From: Mycobacterium sp.
GTDB lineage: Bacteria; Actinomycetota; Actinomycetes; Mycobacteriales; Mycobacteriaceae
Direction: 5' to 3'
Assembly (NCBI GenBank): GCA_020438865.1
Contig: JAGQTU010000032.1
Span: 1-40,638 of the forward strand
Length of the DNA stretch: 40,638 nucleotides
Both the position numbers and the translations under genes were made by a program. A model generated the notes under the pieces. The model made no database searches. It saw only the letters and a program-made list of their open reading frames with translations, and was not told the DNA's origin. Position 1 is the stretch's first letter, and the number at the start of each line of letters is the position of its first letter. Below, one piece after another: positions 2,271 to 37,553 of this stretch.

Positions 2271-3200
2271 ATGACCGAGGACCTGCTGGAACGCCCCAGA
2301 CCCGGGCAGTACGAGCTCAGTCACCTGCGCTCCCTGGAGGCCGAGGCCATCCACATCATCCGCGAGGTCGCCGCCGAGTTCGAGCGCCCGGTGCTGCTGT
2401 TCTCCGGGGGCAAGGACTCGATCGTCATGCTGCACCTGGCGATCAAGGCGTTCGCGCCCGGACGGCTGCCGTTCCCGGTGATGCACGTCGACACCGGCCA
2501 CAACTTCGACGAGGTGATCACCACCCGCGACGAGCTGGTCGCCCGCTACGGCCTGCGCCTGGTGGTCGCCAGCGTGCAGGACGACATCGACGCCGGCCGG
2601 GTGGTCGACAACGGACCCTCGCGTAACCCACTGCAGACCGTCACCCTGCTGCGCGCCATCCGGGAGAACAAGTTCGACGCCGCGTTCGGCGGCGCGCGGC
2701 GTGACGAGGAGAAGGCCCGGGCCAAGGAGCGGGTGTTCAGTTTCCGTGACGAGTTCGGCCAGTGGGACCCGAAGGCGCAGCGCCCCGAGTTGTGGAACCT
2801 CTACAACGGCAGGCACCGCAAGGGTGAGCACATCCGGGTGTTCCCGCTGTCGAACTGGACCGAGTACGACATCTGGGCTTACATCGGCGCCGAGGACATC
2901 CCGCTGCCCGCGATCTACTATGCGCACACCCGCCCGGTGTTCCAGCGCGACGGAATGCTCTTGGCGGTGCACGAATTCATGCAGCCGTCCGACGGTGAAG
3001 AGGTGTTCGAAACGTCGGTGCGGTTCCGCACCGTCGGCGACGTGACCTGCACCGGGTGCGTCGAATCCACCGCGGCCAGCGTCGAGCAGGTGATCGCCGA
3101 GACCGCGTTGTCGCGGCTCACCGAGCGCGGCGCCACCCGCGCCGACGACCGGATCTCCGAGGCCGGTATGGAAGACCGCAAGCGGGAGGGCTACTTCTGA
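2271..3200 (+). CDS. cysD: Sulfate adenylyltransferase small subunit CysD
   Basis: Forms ATP sulfurylase with the CysN part of the next gene, making adenosine 5'-phosphosulfate (APS) from sulfate and ATP in the cytoplasm. The 309-residue protein has the PP-loop SGGKDS near residues 45-50, the dinucleotide-binding FGGARRDEEKAR near residues 139-150, and the RVFPLSNWTEYDIW and TCTGCVES motifs of PAPS reductase/CysD enzymes. ATG 2271 is preceded by CGAGGAA; the frame is open back to 1845 but that part crosses the promoter and the carbonic anhydrase gene. The stop TGA (3198-3200) overlaps the ATG of the first repeat micro-ORF by one base. It is the first gene of the cysD-cysNC-cysQ operon. Confidence 0.96.
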   Translation: MTEDLLERPRPGQYELSHLRSLEAEAIHIIREVAAEFERPVLLFSGGKDSIVMLHLAIKAFAPGRLPFPVMHVDTGHNFDEVITTRDELVARYGLRLVVASVQDDIDAGRVVDNGPSRNPLQTVTLLRAIRENKFDAAFGGARRDEEKARAKERVFSFRDEFGQWDPKAQRPELWNLYNGRHRKGEHIRVFPLSNWTEYDIWAYIGAEDIPLPAIYYAHTRPVFQRDGMLLAVHEFMQPSDGEEVFETSVRFRTVGDVTCTGCVESTAASVEQVIAETALSRLTERGATRADDRISEAGMEDRKREGYF

Positions 3201-3327
3201 TGAGCGCTTGCGCGAAGAACAGAGGACGCTGATGAGCGCTTGCGCGAAGAACCGAGGACGCTGATGAGCGCTTGCGCGAAGAACAGAGGACGCTGATGAG
3301 CGCTTGCGCGAAGAACAGAGGACGCTG
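3198..3327 (+). repeat. Four tandem 32-bp repeats of TGATG-coupled micro-ORFs (MIRU-like)
   Basis: Units start at 3198, 3230, 3262 and 3294, each beginning TGATGAGCGCTTGCGCGAAG; the first bases of a fifth unit coincide with the cysNC start. Each unit holds ATG, nine further codons (peptide MSACAKNRGR) and a TGA that overlaps the next ATG by one base. Each also has GAGGA 5 nt before the next ATG, a good ribosome binding site. The only difference I see is A to C at 3252 in unit 2, which changes AGA to CGA, both Arg. Translation could pass from cysD through four micro-ORFs to cysNC by termination-reinitiation. The design resembles the mycobacterial interspersed repetitive units of M. tuberculosis. 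A related element lies at 37488. Confidence 0.9.
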
Positions 3328-5178
3328 ATGAGCACGCTGTTGAGGCTGGCCACCGCGGGCTCCGTCGACGACGGCAAGTCCACCCTGATCGGCCGGCTGC
3401 TGTTCGACTCCAAGGCCGTCATGGAGGACCAACTCGAGGCGGTCGAGCGCACCTCGAAGGAACGCGGCCACGACTACACCGACCTCGCGCTGGTCACCGA
3501 CGGGCTGCGGTCCGAACGCGAGCAGGGCATCACCATCGACGTGGCCTACCGGTACTTCGCCACGGCCAAGCGGAAATTCATCATCGCCGACACCCCGGGC
3601 CACATCCAGTACACCCGAAACATGGTGACCGGCACCTCGACCGCACAACTGGTGATCGTGCTCGTCGATGCCCGTCACGGCCTGCTGGAGCAGTCCCGCC
3701 GCCACGCGTTCCTGGCATCGTTGCTCGGTGTGCAGCACATCGTGCTCGCCGTCAACAAGATGGACCTGATCGACTGGGACCGTGAGCGTTTCGAGTGGAT
3801 CCGTGACGAGTTCCACGCATTCGCCGCGCGGCTGGACATCCAAGACGTCACCACCATCCCGATCTCGGCGCTCAACGGCGACAACGTGGTGACCAAGTCG
3901 GACAAGGCCCCCTGGTACGATGGGCCGCCGCTGCTGTCACACCTCGAAGACGTCTACATCGCCGGCGACCGCAACCTCGTCGACGTCCGCTTCCCGGTCC
4001 AGTACGTGATCCGGCCGCAGAGCCGCGACCACGCCGACCACCGCAGCTACGCGGGCACGGTGGCCAGCGGTGTGCTGCGCCCCGGTGATGAGGTGGTGGT
4101 GTTGCCGAGCGGAAAGAGCAGCCGTATCAACGTGATCGACGGGCCGACCGGTCCGGTCGACGAGGCCTTCCCGCCGATGGCGGTGTCGATCAGCTTGGCC
4201 GACGACATCGACATCTCCCGCGGCGACATGCTGGCGCGTCCGCAGAACCAGCCCGCCGCGACGAGCGAGTTCGACGCGACGGTGTGTTGGATGGCCGACG
4301 AGGCGGCGCTGGAACCCGGCCGCGACTACATCATCAAGCACACCACCCGCACCACCCGGGCCAGGGTCACCGGGTTGGACTACCGTCTCGACGTCAACAC
4401 GCTGCACCGCGACAAGAGCGCAACGGCGTTGAAGCTCAACGAACTCGGCCGCATCACGCTGCGCACGCAGGTGCCACTGCTGCTCGACGAGTACGTGCGC
4501 AACTCCTCGACCGGTTCGTTCATCCTGATCGACCCGGACACCAATGTGACCGTGGCCGCGGGCATGGTGCGCGACACCGCGCCGGCATCCGCGCGCAGCG
4601 CCTCACCCAATACGGTGCGGCACCAGTCGCTGGTGACGGCGGGTGACCGGCTGACCAAGGGTCGCACACTGTGGTTCACCGGGCTGTCGGGCTCCGGCAA
4701 GTCGTCGGTGGCGGTGTTGGTCGAGCAGAAGCTACTCGAACACGGTTGCCCCGCATACATTCTCGACGGTGACAACCTTCGGCACGGACTCAACGCGGAC
4801 CTCGGCTTCTCGATGGCCGACCGCGCCGAGAACCTGCGCCGACTGGCGCACATCGCCACCTTGATGGCCGACGCCGGCCTGACGGTGCTGGTGCCGGTGA
4901 TCAGCCCGCTGGAGGAACACCGGGAGCTGGCCCGCAAGGTGCACACCGACCAGGGGACGGAGTTCTTCGAGATCTTCGTCGACACTCCGTTGGCGGACTG
5001 CGAGCGCCGAGATCCCAAGGGCCTCTACGCCAAGGCCCGCGCCGGCGAGATCACGCACTTCACCGGGGTCGACAGCCCCTACCAGCGGCCGAAGAATCCG
5101 GACCTGCGGTTGACCCCCGATCGCGGCCCGGACGAACTGGCCGACCAGGTGGTCGAACTGCTCGAGGAGCGCCGGTGA
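3328..5178 (+). CDS. cysNC: Bifunctional sulfate adenylyltransferase large subunit / APS kinase CysNC
   Basis: A 616-residue fusion. The N-terminal EF-Tu-like GTPase (residues ~1-430) drives APS synthesis with CysD; the C-terminal APS kinase (~440-616) phosphorylates APS to PAPS. GTPase motifs: GSVDDGKST at 11-19, DTPGH at 88-92, NKMD at 143-146. APS kinase P-loop: GLSGSGKSS at 452-460, followed by DGDNLRHGLN and the FVDTPLADCERRDPKGLY segment. I chose ATG 3328, which overlaps the last repeat stop (TGATG) and has AGAGGA upstream; an in-frame TTG at 3304 lies inside the repeat. The stop overlaps the cysQ start. The fusion is usual in mycobacteria; what is odd is the repeat array that separates it from its partner cysD. 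Confidence 0.97.
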   Translation: MSTLLRLATAGSVDDGKSTLIGRLLFDSKAVMEDQLEAVERTSKERGHDYTDLALVTDGLRSEREQGITIDVAYRYFATAKRKFIIADTPGHIQYTRNMVTGTSTAQLVIVLVDARHGLLEQSRRHAFLASLLGVQHIVLAVNKMDLIDWDRERFEWIRDEFHAFAARLDIQDVTTIPISALNGDNVVTKSDKAPWYDGPPLLSHLEDVYIAGDRNLVDVRFPVQYVIRPQSRDHADHRSYAGTVASGVLRPGDEVVVLPSGKSSRINVIDGPTGPVDEAFPPMAVSISLADDIDISRGDMLARPQNQPAATSEFDATVCWMADEAALEPGRDYIIKHTTRTTRARVTGLDYRLDVNTLHRDKSATALKLNELGRITLRTQVPLLLDEYVRNSSTGSFILIDPDTNVTVAAGMVRDTAPASARSASPNTVRHQSLVTAGDRLTKGRTLWFTGLSGSGKSSVAVLVEQKLLEHGCPAYILDGDNLRHGLNADLGFSMADRAENLRRLAHIATLMADAGLTVLVPVISPLEEHRELARKVHTDQGTEFFEIFVDTPLADCERRDPKGLYAKARAGEITHFTGVDSPYQRPKNPDLRLTPDRGPDELADQVVELLEERR

Positions 5179-5903
5179 GCGACGATGATCTGGCGGCCAC
5201 GCTGGCCACCGAGGCCGGACGGCTGCTGCTCGACGTCCGCCGCGAGTTCGCCGACGCGTCGGTCGACGATCGCAAGGCGGCCGGCGACAAGCGCTCGCAC
5301 GACTTCCTGATGGCGGCGCTCGGCGCCGAGCGCCCCCACGATGCGGTGCTCTCCGAGGAGGGCGCCGACGACCCGATCCGGCTGCGCAGCAGGCGGGTTT
5401 GGATCGTCGATCCGCTGGACGGCACCCGCGAGTTCTCCGAACTCGGCCGCGACGACTGGGCCGTGCACGTGGCGCTGTGGCAGGACGGTGAGCTGATCGC
5501 CGGTGCGGTGGCCCTGCCCGCCCAGGGCGTCACCCTGGCCACCCCGACCGTGGCGGCACCGCCGGCCGCGCCGGAACACCCTCGGATCGTGGTGTCGCGA
5601 ACCCGGCCACCGGACATCGCGATGCAGGTGCGCGAGCGGCTGGACGGCACGCTGGTCGAAATGGGTTCGGCAGGAGCAAAAGTCGCGGCCGTGGTGCAGG
5701 GCTTCGCCGATGTCTACGTCCACGCCGGCGGGCAGTACGAATGGGACTCGGCGGCCCCGGTGGCCGTCGCGCGGGCCGCGGGCCTGCACACCTCCCGCAT
5801 CGACGGCTCCCCGTTGCGCTACAACCAGTCCAGCCCGAAGCTGCCCGATCTGGTGGTGTGCCGACCGGAGTACGCCGAGGCCGTGCTGGCCGTCACCCGG
5901 TAG
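5175..5903 (+). CDS. cysQ: CysQ-like 3'-phosphoadenosine 5'-phosphate phosphatase
   Basis: Inositol-monophosphatase superfamily enzyme, most likely converting PAP (left after PAPS use) to AMP or trimming PAPS. The 242-residue protein carries the metal-site motifs SEEG at 60-63, DPLDGT at 79-84 and WDSAAP at 190-195, which bind the two or three Mg ions. GTG 5175 overlaps the cysNC stop (GTGA), indicating coupling in one operon and supporting a sulfur role over inositol phosphate. In M. tuberculosis, as I recall, the characterised CysQ gene lies elsewhere, so the operon location here is informative. Inositol or fructose-1,6-bisphosphate side activity is possible for this family. Confidence 0.88.
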
Positions 5904-8155: not shown

Positions 8156-9049
8156 GTGCAGATTGGCATGACCTTGCCGGTGATGGAGCCGGACCTCGAC
8201 GCGAACATCTTGAAGCGCTGGGCCCAGCTGGTCGACGAGGGTCCCTTCTCGTCGCTGTGCTGGGGGGAGCGCATCGCGTTCAACAACCCGGATTCGCTGA
8301 CCCTGCTCGGTGCGCTCTCGGCCTGGACCGAGCGGGTGCCGCTGGTGACGACCGTGGTGGTTCCGCAGCTGCACGATCCGGTGATGTTGGCCAAGGCGCT
8401 GGCGACCGCCGACATGCTTTCCGGTGGCCGGCTGATCGTGGGGATCGGTTCGGGTGGCCGCGAGGAGGACTACCGCGCGGTCGGCGCCGACCCGAAGACG
8501 CAGACCATCCGGGATATGGCCGAGCGGGTCGCGGTGATGAAGCGGGTGTGGGCCGGGGAGAAGATCACCGAGTCGGTGCTGCCGGTCGGGCCCGCGCCGG
8601 TGCAGTCGGACGGCCCGCGGCTGCTGATCGGGGCCACCGGGCCGAGATCGACGCGGGTGGCCGCCGAGTGGGCCGACGGGCTGGCCGGTATCTCGTTGGA
8701 TCTGGACACCGGCAAGCAGAACGAGCTGTTCGACATCGCCCGCACCGCGTGGGCCGAGGCCGGAAAGCCGAAACCGCATCTGGCGACCTCGTTCTGGTTC
8801 GCGCTCGGGGAGGCCGACGCGGCCCGCGCGCAGGTGCACCGCCACCTGCGGCACTACATGAACTGGATCCCGCCGAAGTACGTCGACGCGATGGCGCCCA
8901 CCACCGGCTGGTCGGGCAGCGACGAAGAACTGGTCGCGACGCTGCGCAAGTTCGCCGCGATCGGCACCACCGAGGTGCACCTGATCCCGACCAGTTCGGA
9001 CCTCGACCAGGTGCGGCGGGTGGCCGACCTGGTCGGTGACATCGACTGA
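8156..9049 (+). CDS. LLM-class (luciferase-like) F420- or FMN-dependent oxidoreductase
   Basis: A 297-residue TIM-barrel protein of the bacterial-luciferase superfamily. The N-terminus ([15 protein letters not shown]) and [29 protein letters not shown] (residues ~82-110) are the signature strand and phosphate-binding turns, followed by [17 protein letters not shown]. Mycobacterial members commonly use cofactor F420, but nothing here distinguishes F420 from FMN. GTG 8156 is used because upstream codons overlap the transporter gene and its 3' spacer. The next gene starts 9 bases after its stop, so the two form an operon. The substrate is unknown. Confidence 0.9.
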
Positions 9050-12592: not shown

Positions 12593-12665
12593 TGCCCCCG
12601 GCAGGATTCGAACCTGCGGCCTTCTGCTCCGGAGGCAGACGCTCTATCCCCTGAGCTACGGGGGC
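12593..12665 (-). tRNA. tRNA-Arg (anticodon CCG)
   Basis: A 73-nt cloverleaf on the minus strand: acceptor GCCCCCG/CGGGGGC, D-arm GCTC/GAGC, anticodon stem TCTGC/GCAGA around the loop CTCCGGA (anticodon CCG, reading CGG), and T-arm GCAGG-TTCGAAT-CCTGC, with discriminator A. CCA is not encoded. It is divergent from argS, the gene for the synthetase that charges it. A weak -10 box TAGGCT lies on the minus strand at 12703-12698. Confidence 0.97.
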
Positions 12666-12798: not shown

Positions 12799-14451
12799 GT
12801 GACACCCGCCGACCTTGCCGTGCTGCTCAGACGCGTTGCCACCGCCGTGCTGGTGGAGCACGGTCTGGACGCCGCCGCGTTGCCCGAGGCTGTCACCGTC
12901 GAACGGCCCCGTAACCCCGAGCACGGCGATTACGCCACCAACCTGGCCCTTCAGGTCGCCAAGAAGGTCGGCGCCAACCCCCGCGAACTCGCCGGGTGGC
13001 TCGCCGACGCGCTGGCGGCATCGGACGGCATCGCCTCGGCCGAGGTGGCCGGCCCTGGCTTCGTCAACCTGCGCCTGGAGGCGTCGGCGCAGGGCGTGAT
13101 CGTCAGCAACATCGTCACGGCCGGCGCCGACTACGGCCACTCACGGCTGCTCGACGGGCAGAAGATCAACCTCGAATTCGTCTCGGCGAACCCCACCGGA
13201 CCGATTCACATCGGCGGTACCCGCTGGGCCGCGGTCGGCGACGCCCTGGGCCGGCTGCTGTCCACCCAGGGCGCCGAGGTGGTCCGCGAGTACTACTTCA
13301 ACGACCACGGCGCCCAGATCGACCGCTTCGTGAACTCGTTGATCGCCGCCGCCAACGGACAGCCGGCCCCGGCGGACGGCTACGCCGGCGCCTACATCTC
13401 CGACATCGCCGCCCAGGTACTGGCCAACGCGCCCGACGCGCTCGCCCTGCCCGACGACGAGCAGCGCGAGACTTTTCGCTCCATCGGCGTCGACCTGATG
13501 TTCACCCACATCAAGGCCTCGCTGCACGAGTTCGGCACCGACTTCGACGTCTACACCCACGAAGACTCCATGCACACCAGCGGACGGGTCGACCAGGCGA
13601 TCGCCAAGCTGCGCGAGACCGGCAACATCTACGAGAAGGACGGCGCAACCTGGTTGCGCACCACCGAATTCGGTGACGACAAGGACCGCGTTGTCATCAA
13701 GAGTGACGGCCAACCCGCCTACATCGCCGGTGATCTGGCGTACTACCTCGACAAGCGGCAGCGGGGCTTCGATCTGTGCATCTACATGCTCGGCGCCGAC
13801 CACCACGGCTACATCGCCCGACTCAAGGCCGCCGCGGCCGCCCTCGGTGACGATCCCGAGACCGTCGAGGTGCTGATCGGCCAGATGGTCAACCTGGTGC
13901 GCGACGGGCAACCGGTGCGGATGAGCAAGCGGGCGGGCACCGTGATCACCCTCGACGACCTGGTCGAGGCCATCGGCGTGGACGCCGCGCGCTACGCGTT
14001 GACCCGTTCCTCGGTGGACACCCCGATCGACATCGACCTGCAGTTGTGGTCCTCGGCGTCCAGCGAGAACCCGGTCTACTACGTGCAATACGCCCATGCC
14101 CGGCTCTCGGCACTGGCCCGCAACGCCGCCGACCTCGGCCTGGCCGCCGACACCGCGCATCTCGACCTGCTCACCCACGACAAAGAGGGCATCCTGATCC
14201 GCAACCTCGGGGAGTTCTCCCGGGTGCTGCAGACCGCGGCGAACCTGCGCGAACCGCACCGGGTGTGCCGGTACCTCGAGGACCTCGCCGGCGACTACCA
14301 CCGGTTCTACGACTCCTGCCGGGTGCTGCCGATGGGCGATGAAACCCCGGGCAGCCTCCATCGGGCCCGCCTGGCCCTGTGCGACGCCACCCGCCAGGTC
14401 ATCGCCAACGGGCTGGGCATTCTGGGCGTTTCCGCGCCGGAGCGCATGTGA
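12799..14451 (+). CDS. argS: Arginyl-tRNA synthetase
   Basis: Class I aminoacyl-tRNA synthetase that attaches arginine to tRNA-Arg. It is 550 residues, the same length as I recall for the M. tuberculosis enzyme. The HIGH-type motif is HIGG at 137-140 within [16 protein letters not shown], and the KMSKS-like loop is MSKRAG starting at residue 375. The N-terminal ~110 residues form the ArgRS-specific tRNA-binding domain and the C-terminal part is the DALR anticodon domain. GTG 12799 follows the -10 box by 8 nt. The stop overlaps the lysA GTG (GTGA), an argS-lysA pairing also known in corynebacteria. Confidence 0.97.
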
Positions 14452-21422: not shown

Positions 21423-22238
21423 TCAGGGCTGCCGCAACGCGGCCATGCCGGGTGCCAGCAGGTCGTCCAGCGCCGACCACGGCACGGTCAGCACGGGCAG
21501 TCCGTGTGCGAACTGGTAGTCCGCGAAGTGGATCTCCAGACCGCTCGGAGTCGGGATCCAGTTGGCGAAGTTGGCCTCGATCGGCGCGTTGCCCGGGGCG
21601 TCGGGCATCGGGCTCTCGCCGACGCCCATGACCGCAGGCAACAGCTGCTTGGTCTGCTGGGAGAGCCGGTTCAGTCCGGCCTGTTCGTCGCTGAACAGAT
21701 CCTTCAGGGTGATCGGCGTCGCCGACCGCGAGTCGATCACCACGGTGCTGACGTAGTTCACCGGATGCGCCGACGGCACGTGGTTGTAGAGGCCGCTGAT
21801 CAGTTCCGACACCGCGGCGCTGCCGAAGAAGATCTCCGGTTTGGTGTCGAAACTCCACGTGCCGTCGTTGCCTGCGTCGCGTTTGACCGGATCGAGCTGA
21901 CCCTGGGCCGACGCCCGCACCGCCCGGTTGAAGGTGTCGGCCACCTTCGCATCGCCCCCGGAAATCGTGTCGACCACCAGCGTCCACCGGCCGGTCCCGT
22001 CGGGTGTGGCGTCACCTGTGGTCGATCGGGTGACGGTGTAGGTCTGGCCGTTGCTGACGCCGGTGTTCGCGGCCGCGGCCGAGCTGGTCGACGCGGCCGC
22101 GCTTGTCGACGTGGTGGTGGCCTCGGAGCTGGCAGAGGTGCTGGGCCCGGCCGCCGATCCGCCGCACGCGACCAGGGCGCCGGAGAGCGCAGCGGCCAAA
22201 CCAACCATGAGGGTGCGGGCGGCGTTCACGAGCCGCAT
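21423..22238 (-). CDS. DUF3298/RsiV-like secreted lipoprotein
   Basis: A 271-residue predicted lipoprotein. The signal peptide ends in the lipobox LVAC with lipidation at Cys25, followed by about 40 residues of Ser/Thr/Ala-rich linker. The folded part includes GRWTLVVDTISGGDAKVADTFNRAVRA, then HPVNYVSTVVIDSRSATPITLKDLFSD and the closing LPVLTVPWSALDDLLAPG, all features of the DUF3298 domain found in RsiV-type and mycobacterial exported proteins. The frame is open upstream to 22970 across another gene, but the signal peptide fixes the start at ATG 22238. It is divergent from the DinB-type gene. The specific role is unknown. Confidence 0.87.
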   Translation of the reverse strand: MRLVNAARTLMVGLAAALSGALVACGGSAAGPSTSASSEATTTSTSAAASTSSAAAANTGVSNGQTYTVTRSTTGDATPDGTGRWTLVVDTISGGDAKVADTFNRAVRASAQGQLDPVKRDAGNDGTWSFDTKPEIFFGSAAVSELISGLYNHVPSAHPVNYVSTVVIDSRSATPITLKDLFSDEQAGLNRLSQQTKQLLPAVMGVGESPMPDAPGNAPIEANFANWIPTPSGLEIHFADYQFAHGLPVLTVPWSALDDLLAPGMAALRQP

Positions 22239-23782: not shown

Positions 23783-25366
23783 ATGGCCGAGACCGTCCAG
23801 CAGTTGCTGCGCGAGCACCTCGACAATCCCGCCCCGGCGGTGAAGTTCGGCGACCGGGTCTGGACCTGGCGCGAACACCTCGACGAGGCGTCTCGGCAGG
23901 CGTCCGCCCTGATCGCGCTCGCCGACCCCGAGCGGCCGTTGCACGTGGGAACGTTGCTGGGCAACACCCCCGAGATGCTCACCGCCATGGCGGCCGCCGG
24001 GCTGGGCGGCTATGTGCTGTGCGGCGTGAACGACACCCGCCGCGGCGAGGCGCTGGCCCGTGACATCCGCAAGGCAGACTGCCAGATCCTGCTCACCGAC
24101 GACGCGCACCGGGGCCTGCTCGACGGCCTGTCGCTTCCCGGGGTCCGGGTGCTCGACCTGTCCTCGAAGGAGTGGTCACAGCGGCTCGCGGGCGCGGGTG
24201 AGCTGACCCCGCATCGCGAGGTCACCGCCACCGACACGTTCATGCTGATCTTCACCTCCGGCACCAGCGGCGAGCCGAAGGCCGTCCGGGTCGCGCACAT
24301 GATGGTGCCGTTCGCCGGGGCGGCCCTGGTGCAGCGCTTCGAGATCACCGCCGACGACGTCTGCTACCTGTCGATGCCGCTGTTCCACTCCAACGCGCTG
24401 ATGGCGGGCTGGTCGGTGGCGCTGACCGCGGGCGCGGCGATGGCGCCGGCCACGTTCTCGGCGTCCGGGCTGCTCGACGATCTGCGGCACTACGGCGTCA
24501 CCTATCTGAACTACGTCGGCAAGCCGCTGGCCTACGTGCTGGCCACCCCCGAGCGGCCCGACGACCACGACAACCCGCTGCGGGTGGCCTTCGGCAACGA
24601 GGCCACCGATCGCGACATCGACGAGTTCAGCCGCCGGTTCGGCTGTACGGTCTGGGACGGCTTCGGGTCCACCGAGGGTGCGGTCATCATCACCCGGGAG
24701 GACGACTGTCCGTCCGGGTCCGTCGGCCGCGGGTTCCCGGGCGTGGCGATCTACAACTCCGAGACGCGGCAGGAGTGCGCGACGGCGCGCTTCGACGCCA
24801 CCGGCGCCCTGGCCAACCCGGACGAGGCGATCGGGGAGATCGTCAACACCACCGGCGGCGGCATGTTCGGCGGCTACTACAACGACCCGAACGCCACCGA
24901 CGAGCGGCTGCGGCACGGGATGTACTGGTCGGGAGACCTGGGCTACCGCGACGCGGACGGGTGGATCTACCTGGCCGGCCGGACCGCGGACTGGATGCGC
25001 GTCGACGGCGAGAACATGGCGGCGGCCCCCATCGAACGCATCATCCTGCGGCTGCCCGAGGTCAGCCAGGTCGCGGTCTATCCGGTTCCCGACGAGCATG
25101 TGGGCGATCAGGTGATGGCGGCGGTCGTGCTGGCCGACGGAACCGAACTGACCCCCGAAACCTTCGGGGACTTCCTGGCCATCCAGTCCGACCTGTCCCC
25201 GAAGGCCTGGCCCCGGCACGTCTGGATCGCCGATCGGCTTCCCGCCACCGCCACCAACAAGGTCCTCAAGCGCGAACTCGTCGCCCGCGGCGTCAACCCA
25301 TCCGGCGGCCGGTTGTGGACGCGGGAGCCGCGCGGCCGGGTGTACACCGCCCGAACGGCGGAATAG
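23783..25366 (+). CDS. FadD-type acyl-CoA synthetase / AMP-binding ligase
   Basis: A 527-residue adenylate-forming enzyme that activates a carboxylic (fatty) acid to acyl-AMP and acyl-CoA. The phosphate loop is [10 protein letters not shown] at 157-166. The A5-type motif is [11 protein letters not shown], followed by [32 protein letters not shown] (the A7-A8 hinge), and the catalytic A10 lysine is Lys493 in [10 protein letters not shown]. It looks like mycobacterial FadD1/FadD17 relatives, but I cannot assign the number or the chain length. GGGAGA precedes ATG 23783. The divergent TetR gene suggests substrate-inducible expression. It is a single-gene unit, followed by the rpmE promoter. Confidence 0.92.
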
Positions 25367-25414: not shown

Positions 25415-25505
25415 GAACCGTCGACCACCTCAGGTACCGGTTCACGCCCGCCAGCCAGGGAGAATCCCGAGGGCGACCCGGCGACCTACGAATGAAGAGG
25501 ACACC

Positions 25506-37487: not shown

Positions 37488-37490
<3 letters not shown>

Positions 37491-37553
37491 TGAGCGCTTG
37501 CGCGAAGAACCAAGAGCTTGAGCGCGGTGCCTGGACGCGAAAGGTGATGTGAG
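37488..37553 (+). repeat. Single MIRU-like element between atpD and atpC, related to the cys repeat array
   Basis: The first 24 bases (37488-37511), starting TGATGAGCGCTTGCGCGAAG, are identical to the head of repeat unit 2 of the array at 3198-3327. After that the sequence differs. It again forms a coupled micro-ORF: ATG 37490 shares a base with the atpD stop, reads MSACAKNQELERG and a further seven residues, and ends TGA at 37550-37552, 1 nt before the atpC ATG. Two copies in unrelated operons, both exactly at a stop codon, indicate a dispersed element. Confidence 0.85.

Follow-up and report, generated by a model that had tools for sequence, protein, structure and literature searches.

A four-unit array of a dispersed, probably MIRU-like short repeat at the stop/start overlap of cysD and cysNC in Mycobacterium sp.

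The window (the whole stretch of DNA analysed, 40,638 nucleotides of contig JAGQTU010000032.1 from Mycobacterium sp.) carries the sulfate-assimilation genes cysD and cysNC on the forward strand. Between them, at positions 3199-3326, lies an array of four units of 32 bp, each with a 10-codon open reading frame (ORF) and a TGATG junction (Table 1). The unit sequence is GATGAGCGCTTGCGCGAAGAAC(A/C)GAGGACGCT, and only one base varies among the four units, an AGA to CGA change in unit 2, just as the initial annotation of this DNA had stated. TRF reported a period of 32 with 4.3 copies and a 98% match (3197-3333), and a pattern search of the window returned the four units without mismatch vs none in 100 shuffles. 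Direct reading, TRF, the pattern search and the NCBIfam matches of the flanking genes all agree with the initial claim that four such units are inserted at the cysD-cysNC junction. The stop codon of cysD (TGA, 3198-3200) overlaps the ATG of the first micro-ORF by one base, and every micro-ORF TGA likewise overlaps the following ATG by its A, the final ATG being that of cysNC. The stop-start chain from cysD through the micro-ORFs to cysNC, which had also been proposed, is thus unbroken as read from the sequence. In addition, a purine-rich AGAGGA ends 5 nt upstream of each following ATG.

Table 1 Array between cysD and cysNC and related repeats in the same genome and in relatives
Feature	Position	Strand	Remarks
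cysD	2277..3200	+	Start approximate; NCBIfam CysD (480.8 bits) and sequence
Repeat unit 1	3199..3230	+	Micro-ORF 3200-3232, MSACAKNRGR and stop
Repeat unit 2	3231..3262	+	AGA to CGA; micro-ORF 3232-3264, same peptide
Repeat unit 3	3263..3294	+	Micro-ORF 3264-3296, same peptide
Repeat unit 4	3295..3326	+	Micro-ORF 3296-3328, same peptide; TGA overlaps cysNC ATG
cysNC (sulfate adenylyltransferase subunit 1 / APS kinase)	3328..5178	+	NCBIfam bifunctional CysN/adenylylsulfate kinase (976.5 bits)
Single GATGAGCGCTYGCGCGAAGA-core copy at atpD-atpC	37489..37553	+	Genes by NCBIfam
Locus on C18			Four units of 32; before a PyrB-type carbamoyltransferase gene (same cluster as L103, Pfam of L103)
Locus on C315			Two units of the GATGAGCGCTYGCGCGAAGA family
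Locus on C318			Period 32; beside a run of N
Locus on C337			Period 32; GCTGGC variants
Locus on C365			Two units of 32; before an acyl-CoA dehydrogenase-like gene
Locus on C44			One unit; before a B12-binding protein gene (cluster and Pfam of L152)
Locus on C74			Units of 35-36 bp; one or two extra bases in core
GGGGCGAGCGAAGCGACGGGG repeat at cysD-cysN of relatives			L202, L214, L217, L218, L223, L224, L226, L237, L253, L255, L267, L270, L272, L276, L286

To see the array in its genomic context, it is important to consider the core GATGAGCGCTYGCGCGAAGA (19-20 nt), which is dispersed over nine loci of the same genome (counting the shifted variant on contig C74) and has 18 exact copies there. 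An array specific to the cysD-cysNC locus was ruled out by this search. At the atpD-atpC junction of the window, the single copy forms a 20-codon ORF (37490-37552) that opens within the stop codon of atpD (TGATG) and leaves a single base between its own end and the atpC ATG (37554). The spacer 3' of the core (approximately 10-15 nt) differs from locus to locus and is nearly constant inside one array. The C318 array (5260-5339, L031) is followed by a run of N, which may represent an assembly gap or a withheld stretch. It should be noted that neighbour names given outside database matches, pyrR included, are our own reading of the sequence. A plasmid or phage origin was considered and rejected, as blastn of two collections gave no match, with a low-complexity filter that may hide short repeats. 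Elsewhere in the window, an L31-Actinobacteria ribosomal leader (25431-25486, + strand), a tRNA (12593-12665, - strand) and other weak tandem repeats of 18-27 bp (8574-8619, 14105-14169, 22074-22111 and 24395-24446) were observed.

The GATGAGCGCTYGCGCGAAGA core is widespread in mycobacteria. With at most one mismatch it was detected in 52 out of 100 genomes of the order and in 42 out of the 60 that belong to the genus (counting the own genome). One relative carried as many as 73 copies, and the reversed-pattern control gave no match in any of the 100 genomes. Among 394 genomes of the class, 20 had the exact core: 18 of the 26 within the genus and 2 of the 368 outside it. A scan of named genomes returned at least 118 stretches; the matches listed belonged mostly to Mycobacterium, Mycolicibacterium and Mycobacteroides, and also included a few Pseudonocardiales, Frankiales and Hamadaea as well as some metagenome-assembled records of other names. 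Mycolicibacterium vaccae and M. aurum are among the species whose records contain the core. Searched as a string in both orientations, the core had no match in the open-access literature.

We then characterized position, orientation and frame in a main set of 147 distinct arrays, drawn from 139 loci (two genome searches and 80 named-genome stretches) and the nine loci of the own genome, using gene frames called by a codon model trained on these loci. The upstream gene was co-oriented in 130 of 139 decided cases, and 107 of these 130 genes run into the core in phase, with a left junction of ATGA (70) or TGATGA (37). The downstream gene was co-oriented in 124 of 134 decided cases (10 were on the opposite strand), and 96 of the 124 showed the coupling phase (ATGA/TGATG). 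The stop of the last-unit micro-ORF lay at -4 relative to the downstream start in 70 of 109 arrays and at -1 in 10. Unit lengths ranged from 24 to 35 bp, with 32 or 33 in 41 of 55 (35-36 bp at C74), and internal periods in the phase that would break the passage were rare (4/55, P=5e-6). When the chain was followed from the first unit, it reached the gene start in 83 of 110 arrays (56 of 73 clusters), and 27 of the 110 failed to reach the chosen start. These array counts overstate the number of independent events, since insertions in related species may share descent.

Downstream proteins were clustered: 122 were long enough to compare and fell into 82 clusters, 10 of which offered no start candidate. 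With one array taken per cluster, 56 of 72 micro-ORF stops lay no more than 5 nt from the gene start, vs 6 of 72 in a control frame. A later set of 41 further arrays, from the remaining 38 named-genome stretches, agreed with the main set in phase: 24 of 34 co-oriented upstream genes were in phase, and 31 of 35 decided downstream genes were co-oriented, 21 of these 31 in the coupling phase. The stop result was weaker (12/27 within 5 nt of the chosen start vs 5/27 in the control frame), partly because the start rule picks whichever in-frame ATG or GTG lies furthest upstream, a codon that can fall inside the spacer; at two loci (L161 and L189) a spacer GTG precedes the likely ATG. Three single matches in this set (L175, L179 and L182) look like chance.

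The 82 clusters are varied, and thus the GATGAGCGCTYGCGCGAAGA family appears to be general and not tied to sulfate assimilation. Among 20 downstream proteins submitted to Pfam, 18 were matched, including ribosomal protein L22, NuoE-type ferredoxin, biotin carboxylase, MlaE, amino-acid permease, aspartate/ornithine carbamoyltransferase, histidine kinase, an IMP dehydrogenase domain, cyclopropane synthase and an NrfD-type protein. The initial annotation had suggested a cys-specific role, in which copy number could set the ratio of CysD to CysNC. Such control would fit an array lying between subunits of one complex, and in the part of PMC2734929 that deals with the rnc-fpg1 repeat of M. tuberculosis, repeat length is reported to correlate with the fpg1 mRNA level, which makes that repeat the nearest precedent we have for a copy-number effect. 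However, the same family precedes genes as different as rplV, PyrB-type, NuoE-type, atpC, mlaE and acyl-CoA dehydrogenase-like genes, and at cysD-cysN it is missing from 102 of 110 genomes (see below). The cys-specific role is not supported, and we regard it as very improbable. A cys-specific function is unnecessary to explain the array, and its cys setting is probably incidental.

The orthologous junctions provide a more direct view. For cysD-cysN, 110 junctions could be read from 148 genomes searched. Most often the two genes simply overlap at TGATG; recognised inserts, picked by eye for the two cores GATGAGCGCTYGCGCGAAGA and GGGGCGAGCGAAGCGACGGGG (the latter described below), were found in 20 of the 110 genomes. 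Five contained the GATGAGCGCTYGCGCGAAGA family alone (the window, L220, L232, L242 and L244, with an altered core start in L242), twelve the GGGGCGAGCGAAGCGACGGGG family alone in one to three copies, and three both families together. The GATGAGCGCTYGCGCGAAGA family is present at 8 of 110 junctions, the window included. The ORF chain to the downstream start was kept in all 20 inserts: in 17 of them the ORF that opens at the cysD stop leads directly to a point at -4 to +2 nt of the cysN start, and in the other three (the window, L224 and L267), by our reading of the sequence, each successive unit makes this step anew. Outside this count are 20 junctions that exceed 50 nt and in which neither core was recognised, among them L201 and L206, whose CysN carries an N-terminal extension with an apparent reverse complement of part of the GGGGCGAGCGAAGCGACGGGG repeat, possibly an inverted copy captured into the coding sequence. 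A further GATGAGCGCTYGCGCGAAGA-family insert at cysD-cysN occurs in Mycobacterium sp. ST-F2 (L119), beyond the 110.

For pyrR-pyrB, 70 of 145 junctions were read and 20 inserts scored, comprising the GATGAGCGCTYGCGCGAAGA family or decayed relatives in one to five units; one more (L459), visible by eye, was missed by the scoring pattern and stands outside the 20. The chain reached the pyrB start in 20 of 20 inserts (at -4 in 19 and at -1 in one), vs 5 of 20 when it was begun in another frame as a control. In two single-frame arrays (L446 and L452) there is one long ORF and the last unit restores the overlap, and six decayed copies (L461, L476, L487, L490, L499 and L501) have kept the frame with a changed peptide. 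Because the pyrB starts are fixed by homology and the decayed copies keep the frame, this junction offers the best evidence, on sequence grounds, that it would be the coupling and not the peptide that is kept. Some of these inserts are likely shared by descent. Empty sites in relatives, at both cysD-cysN and pyrR-pyrB, are plain TGATG or ATGA overlaps, and the pattern of presence and absence fits insertion. The random frameshifts or stops that the initial annotation had named as evidence against a chain were not seen in relatives, the chain being kept at all scored inserts of both junctions.

It is necessary to consider whether a plain selfish or neutral repeat, whose insertion duplicates GATGA and so makes the overlaps automatically, with nothing translated or selected, would give the same picture. 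The left junction is indeed automatic when a unit is inserted between two GATGA copies; a distance of 32 from core ATG to gene start is far the commonest (39 of 72 clusters; 43 of 90 cluster-by-distance cases); third codon positions of the core are conserved as well, which is what recent copying would leave; and the frame rule is weaker in the later 41 arrays. On the other hand, phase exceeds chance at other distances as well: with distance 32 left out, 18 of 33 clusters (P=0.0097) and 25 of 47 cluster-distance pairs (P=0.0039) are still in phase. Furthermore, arrays with in-frame units have a last unit that restores the overlap, and phase is kept both in the decayed pyrR-pyrB copies and in the GGGGCGAGCGAAGCGACGGGG inserts, which are of other length. 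On these points, we consider a plain selfish or neutral repeat unlikely, and the frame would be kept by selection on coupling, beyond what the insertion process alone would produce.

Whether the encoded peptide itself matters was analyzed in 190 different units, in which the core barely varies at any codon position, third positions included, within a unit search that tolerated at most three mismatches and so limited the divergence seen. The sole variable core base turns Cys into Arg (T in 139 units, C in 48 and G in 3). Changes within arrays comprised 13 synonymous, 19 non-synonymous and 1 stop, vs 8.4 synonymous and 24.3 non-synonymous expected, a tally in which a recurrent change counts each time. 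These counts do not support a reading as selection on the peptide, given that the synonymous excess is not decisive and the commonest core variant is Cys to Arg; the suggestion that the synonymous AGA to CGA change hints at a coding role is not supported, on the same grounds. A peptide that acts itself, for example as a cysteine-sensing attenuator via the TGC codon, would be in line with a Cys codon in every unit beside sulfate-assimilation genes, and cysteine-sensing attenuators of this kind occur in other mycobacterial leaders. However, Cys is replaced by Arg in 48 of the 190 units, downstream genes are unrelated to cysteine, synonymous change shows no clear excess and decayed copies carry different peptides, which makes this explanation extremely improbable.

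At the level of RNA, Shine-Dalgarno-like matches barely exceeded those in shuffled spacers (55/72 vs 48.2). Folding of the unit and of the junction was no better than that of shuffles (z of 0.51 and 0.34, respectively), whereas the whole array was somewhat more stable (z of -1.95, with 7 of 200 shuffles as stable). Rfam gave no match at the cysD-cysNC array, and a structured RNA was rejected on the basis of this and the ordinary unit fold, the whole-array value notwithstanding. Palindromic repeats of the REP/BIME type form a stable hairpin from an inverted repeat, which neither the cysD-cysNC unit nor its junction matches.

The closest known system is the mycobacterial interspersed repetitive unit (MIRU). 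According to the part of PMC12548453 concerned with them, MIRUs are apparently mobile, and by inserting at a start codon they bring in an ORF that is coupled at -4 nt. Like the GATGAGCGCTYGCGCGAAGA family at its nine loci in the own genome, MIRUs are short tandem repeats dispersed at intercistronic junctions. They likewise occur at stop/start overlaps and are co-oriented with the downstream gene (compare 107/130 upstream and 124/134 downstream in the GATGAGCGCTYGCGCGAAGA family), and carry an ORF ending at about -4 nt from the next gene, similar to the predicted -4 in 70 of 109 arrays, which is weaker in the later set. We fetched senX3-regX3 junctions from 70 genomes and scanned 40 loci for MIRU starts; 17 MIRU-type junctions were found and the chain was kept in 16 of them. 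The MIRU unit in L443 measures 53 bp, compared with approximately 32 bp in the GATGAGCGCTYGCGCGAAGA family, whose units of 24-35 bp also fall below the 40-100 bp stated for MIRUs in the relevant part of PMC2734929. MIRU micro-peptides are richer in acidic residues, whereas those of the GATGAGCGCTYGCGCGAAGA family are basic, and the GATGAGCGCTYGCGCGAAGA family, unlike MIRU, is conserved only in its core, its spacers being locus-specific. The alignment of the GATGAGCGCTYGCGCGAAGA core with the L443 MIRU unit scored 6, which was reached by 293 of 1000 shuffles, and the likeness of its reverse complement was not beyond shuffles either. With shared architecture and a sequence likeness only at shuffle level, the two would be repeats of the same kind with different sequence and, for the GATGAGCGCTYGCGCGAAGA family, a shorter unit; the initial statement that the repeat is distinct from MIRUs is borne out for sequence and fails for architecture, which is common to both. 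Two side observations were made at senX3-regX3. G/C-rich, partly palindromic pieces, for example CCCGCTTGCGGGG, lie inside the MIRU units of L411, L426, L427, L435, L436 and L442, which suggests nested small inserts, and a repeat-like stretch, ATGACGGAAGGCACG, precedes regX3 in L392 and L401 and by eye is unlike MIRU or the GATGAGCGCTYGCGCGAAGA family.

A second dispersed repeat, with the core GGGGCGAGCGAAGCGACGGGG, occupies the same insertion point at cysD-cysN of relatives (Table 1), with the chain kept. Of 61 genomes sampled, 15 contained its exact 18-nt core, which the own genome of the window lacks. In contrast with the GATGAGCGCTYGCGCGAAGA core, it is similar to the MIRU unit, its score being reached by 0 of 1000 shuffles. 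At other loci (8 viewed) its setting looks more varied. In the open-access literature, the sole match to this core as a string is a paper on an unrelated subject. A composite full-length element uniting the GGGGCGAGCGAAGCGACGGGG and GATGAGCGCTYGCGCGAAGA families was considered and rejected: it was found in 3 of 148 genomes, at one place each, and because all of these places are cysD-cysN junctions already seen, the joint inserts are probably nested insertions.

Bicistronic design leaders are a synthetic-biology device in which a short leader ORF is placed before a gene. They likewise deliver ribosomes to the next start by a short leader ORF (PMC12548453 touches on them), although they are engineered and the GATGAGCGCTYGCGCGAAGA family is a dispersed natural repeat. 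The rnc-fpg1 repeat mentioned above (ETR-F / VNTR3239) is likewise an intergenic tandem repeat ending at a start codon, with higher mRNA reported for longer arrays; it is set apart by its description, having units of 55 and 79 bp and no micro-ORF chain in the part of PMC2734929 devoted to it.

On the basis of these results, the array is best explained, and we think with good probability, as a four-copy tandem of a new MIRU-like family of short interspersed repeats, which is tolerated because translational coupling is preserved. In the lineage of the window, the repeat would have inserted precisely where the stop of cysD and the start of cysNC overlap by one base. Every unit provides an ATG within the stop of the preceding ORF, then an open frame, and finally a TGA that overlaps the following ATG. 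With a stop/start overlap at every unit, a ribosome ending cysD could pass through the four 10-codon ORFs to cysNC without loss of coupling, presumably by re-initiation within the array. The relay proposed in the initial annotation would thus fit the wider data on the GATGAGCGCTYGCGCGAAGA family. The family may have spread by copying or recombination of its core, and copy number may change by slippage or unequal recombination.

These findings indicate that MIRU-like repeats are not peculiar to one sequence, as a different, widespread and partly abundant family shows the same kind of junction and the same frame rule. A broader idea, which we put forward only tentatively and hold to be doubtful, is that several unrelated repeat families of mycobacteria (the GATGAGCGCTYGCGCGAAGA family, the GGCGAGCGAAGCGACGGG element and MIRUs) have a way of life in common: each would copy itself, as a prefabricated coupling cassette, into the stop/start overlaps of genes that are translated together, and evolution could then tune the ratio of the neighbouring operon products through the number of units. 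If this were true, the operons concerned would include those for ATP synthase, ribosomal proteins and sulfate assimilation. Through the frame rule, selection on coupling can be put to the test, and orthologous junctions with 0 to 5 units across species are natural experiments on coupling through repeated stop/start relays. In addition, arrays of this kind can confuse the annotation of start codons, and those of the GATGAGCGCTYGCGCGAAGA family provide a large set of candidate typing loci.
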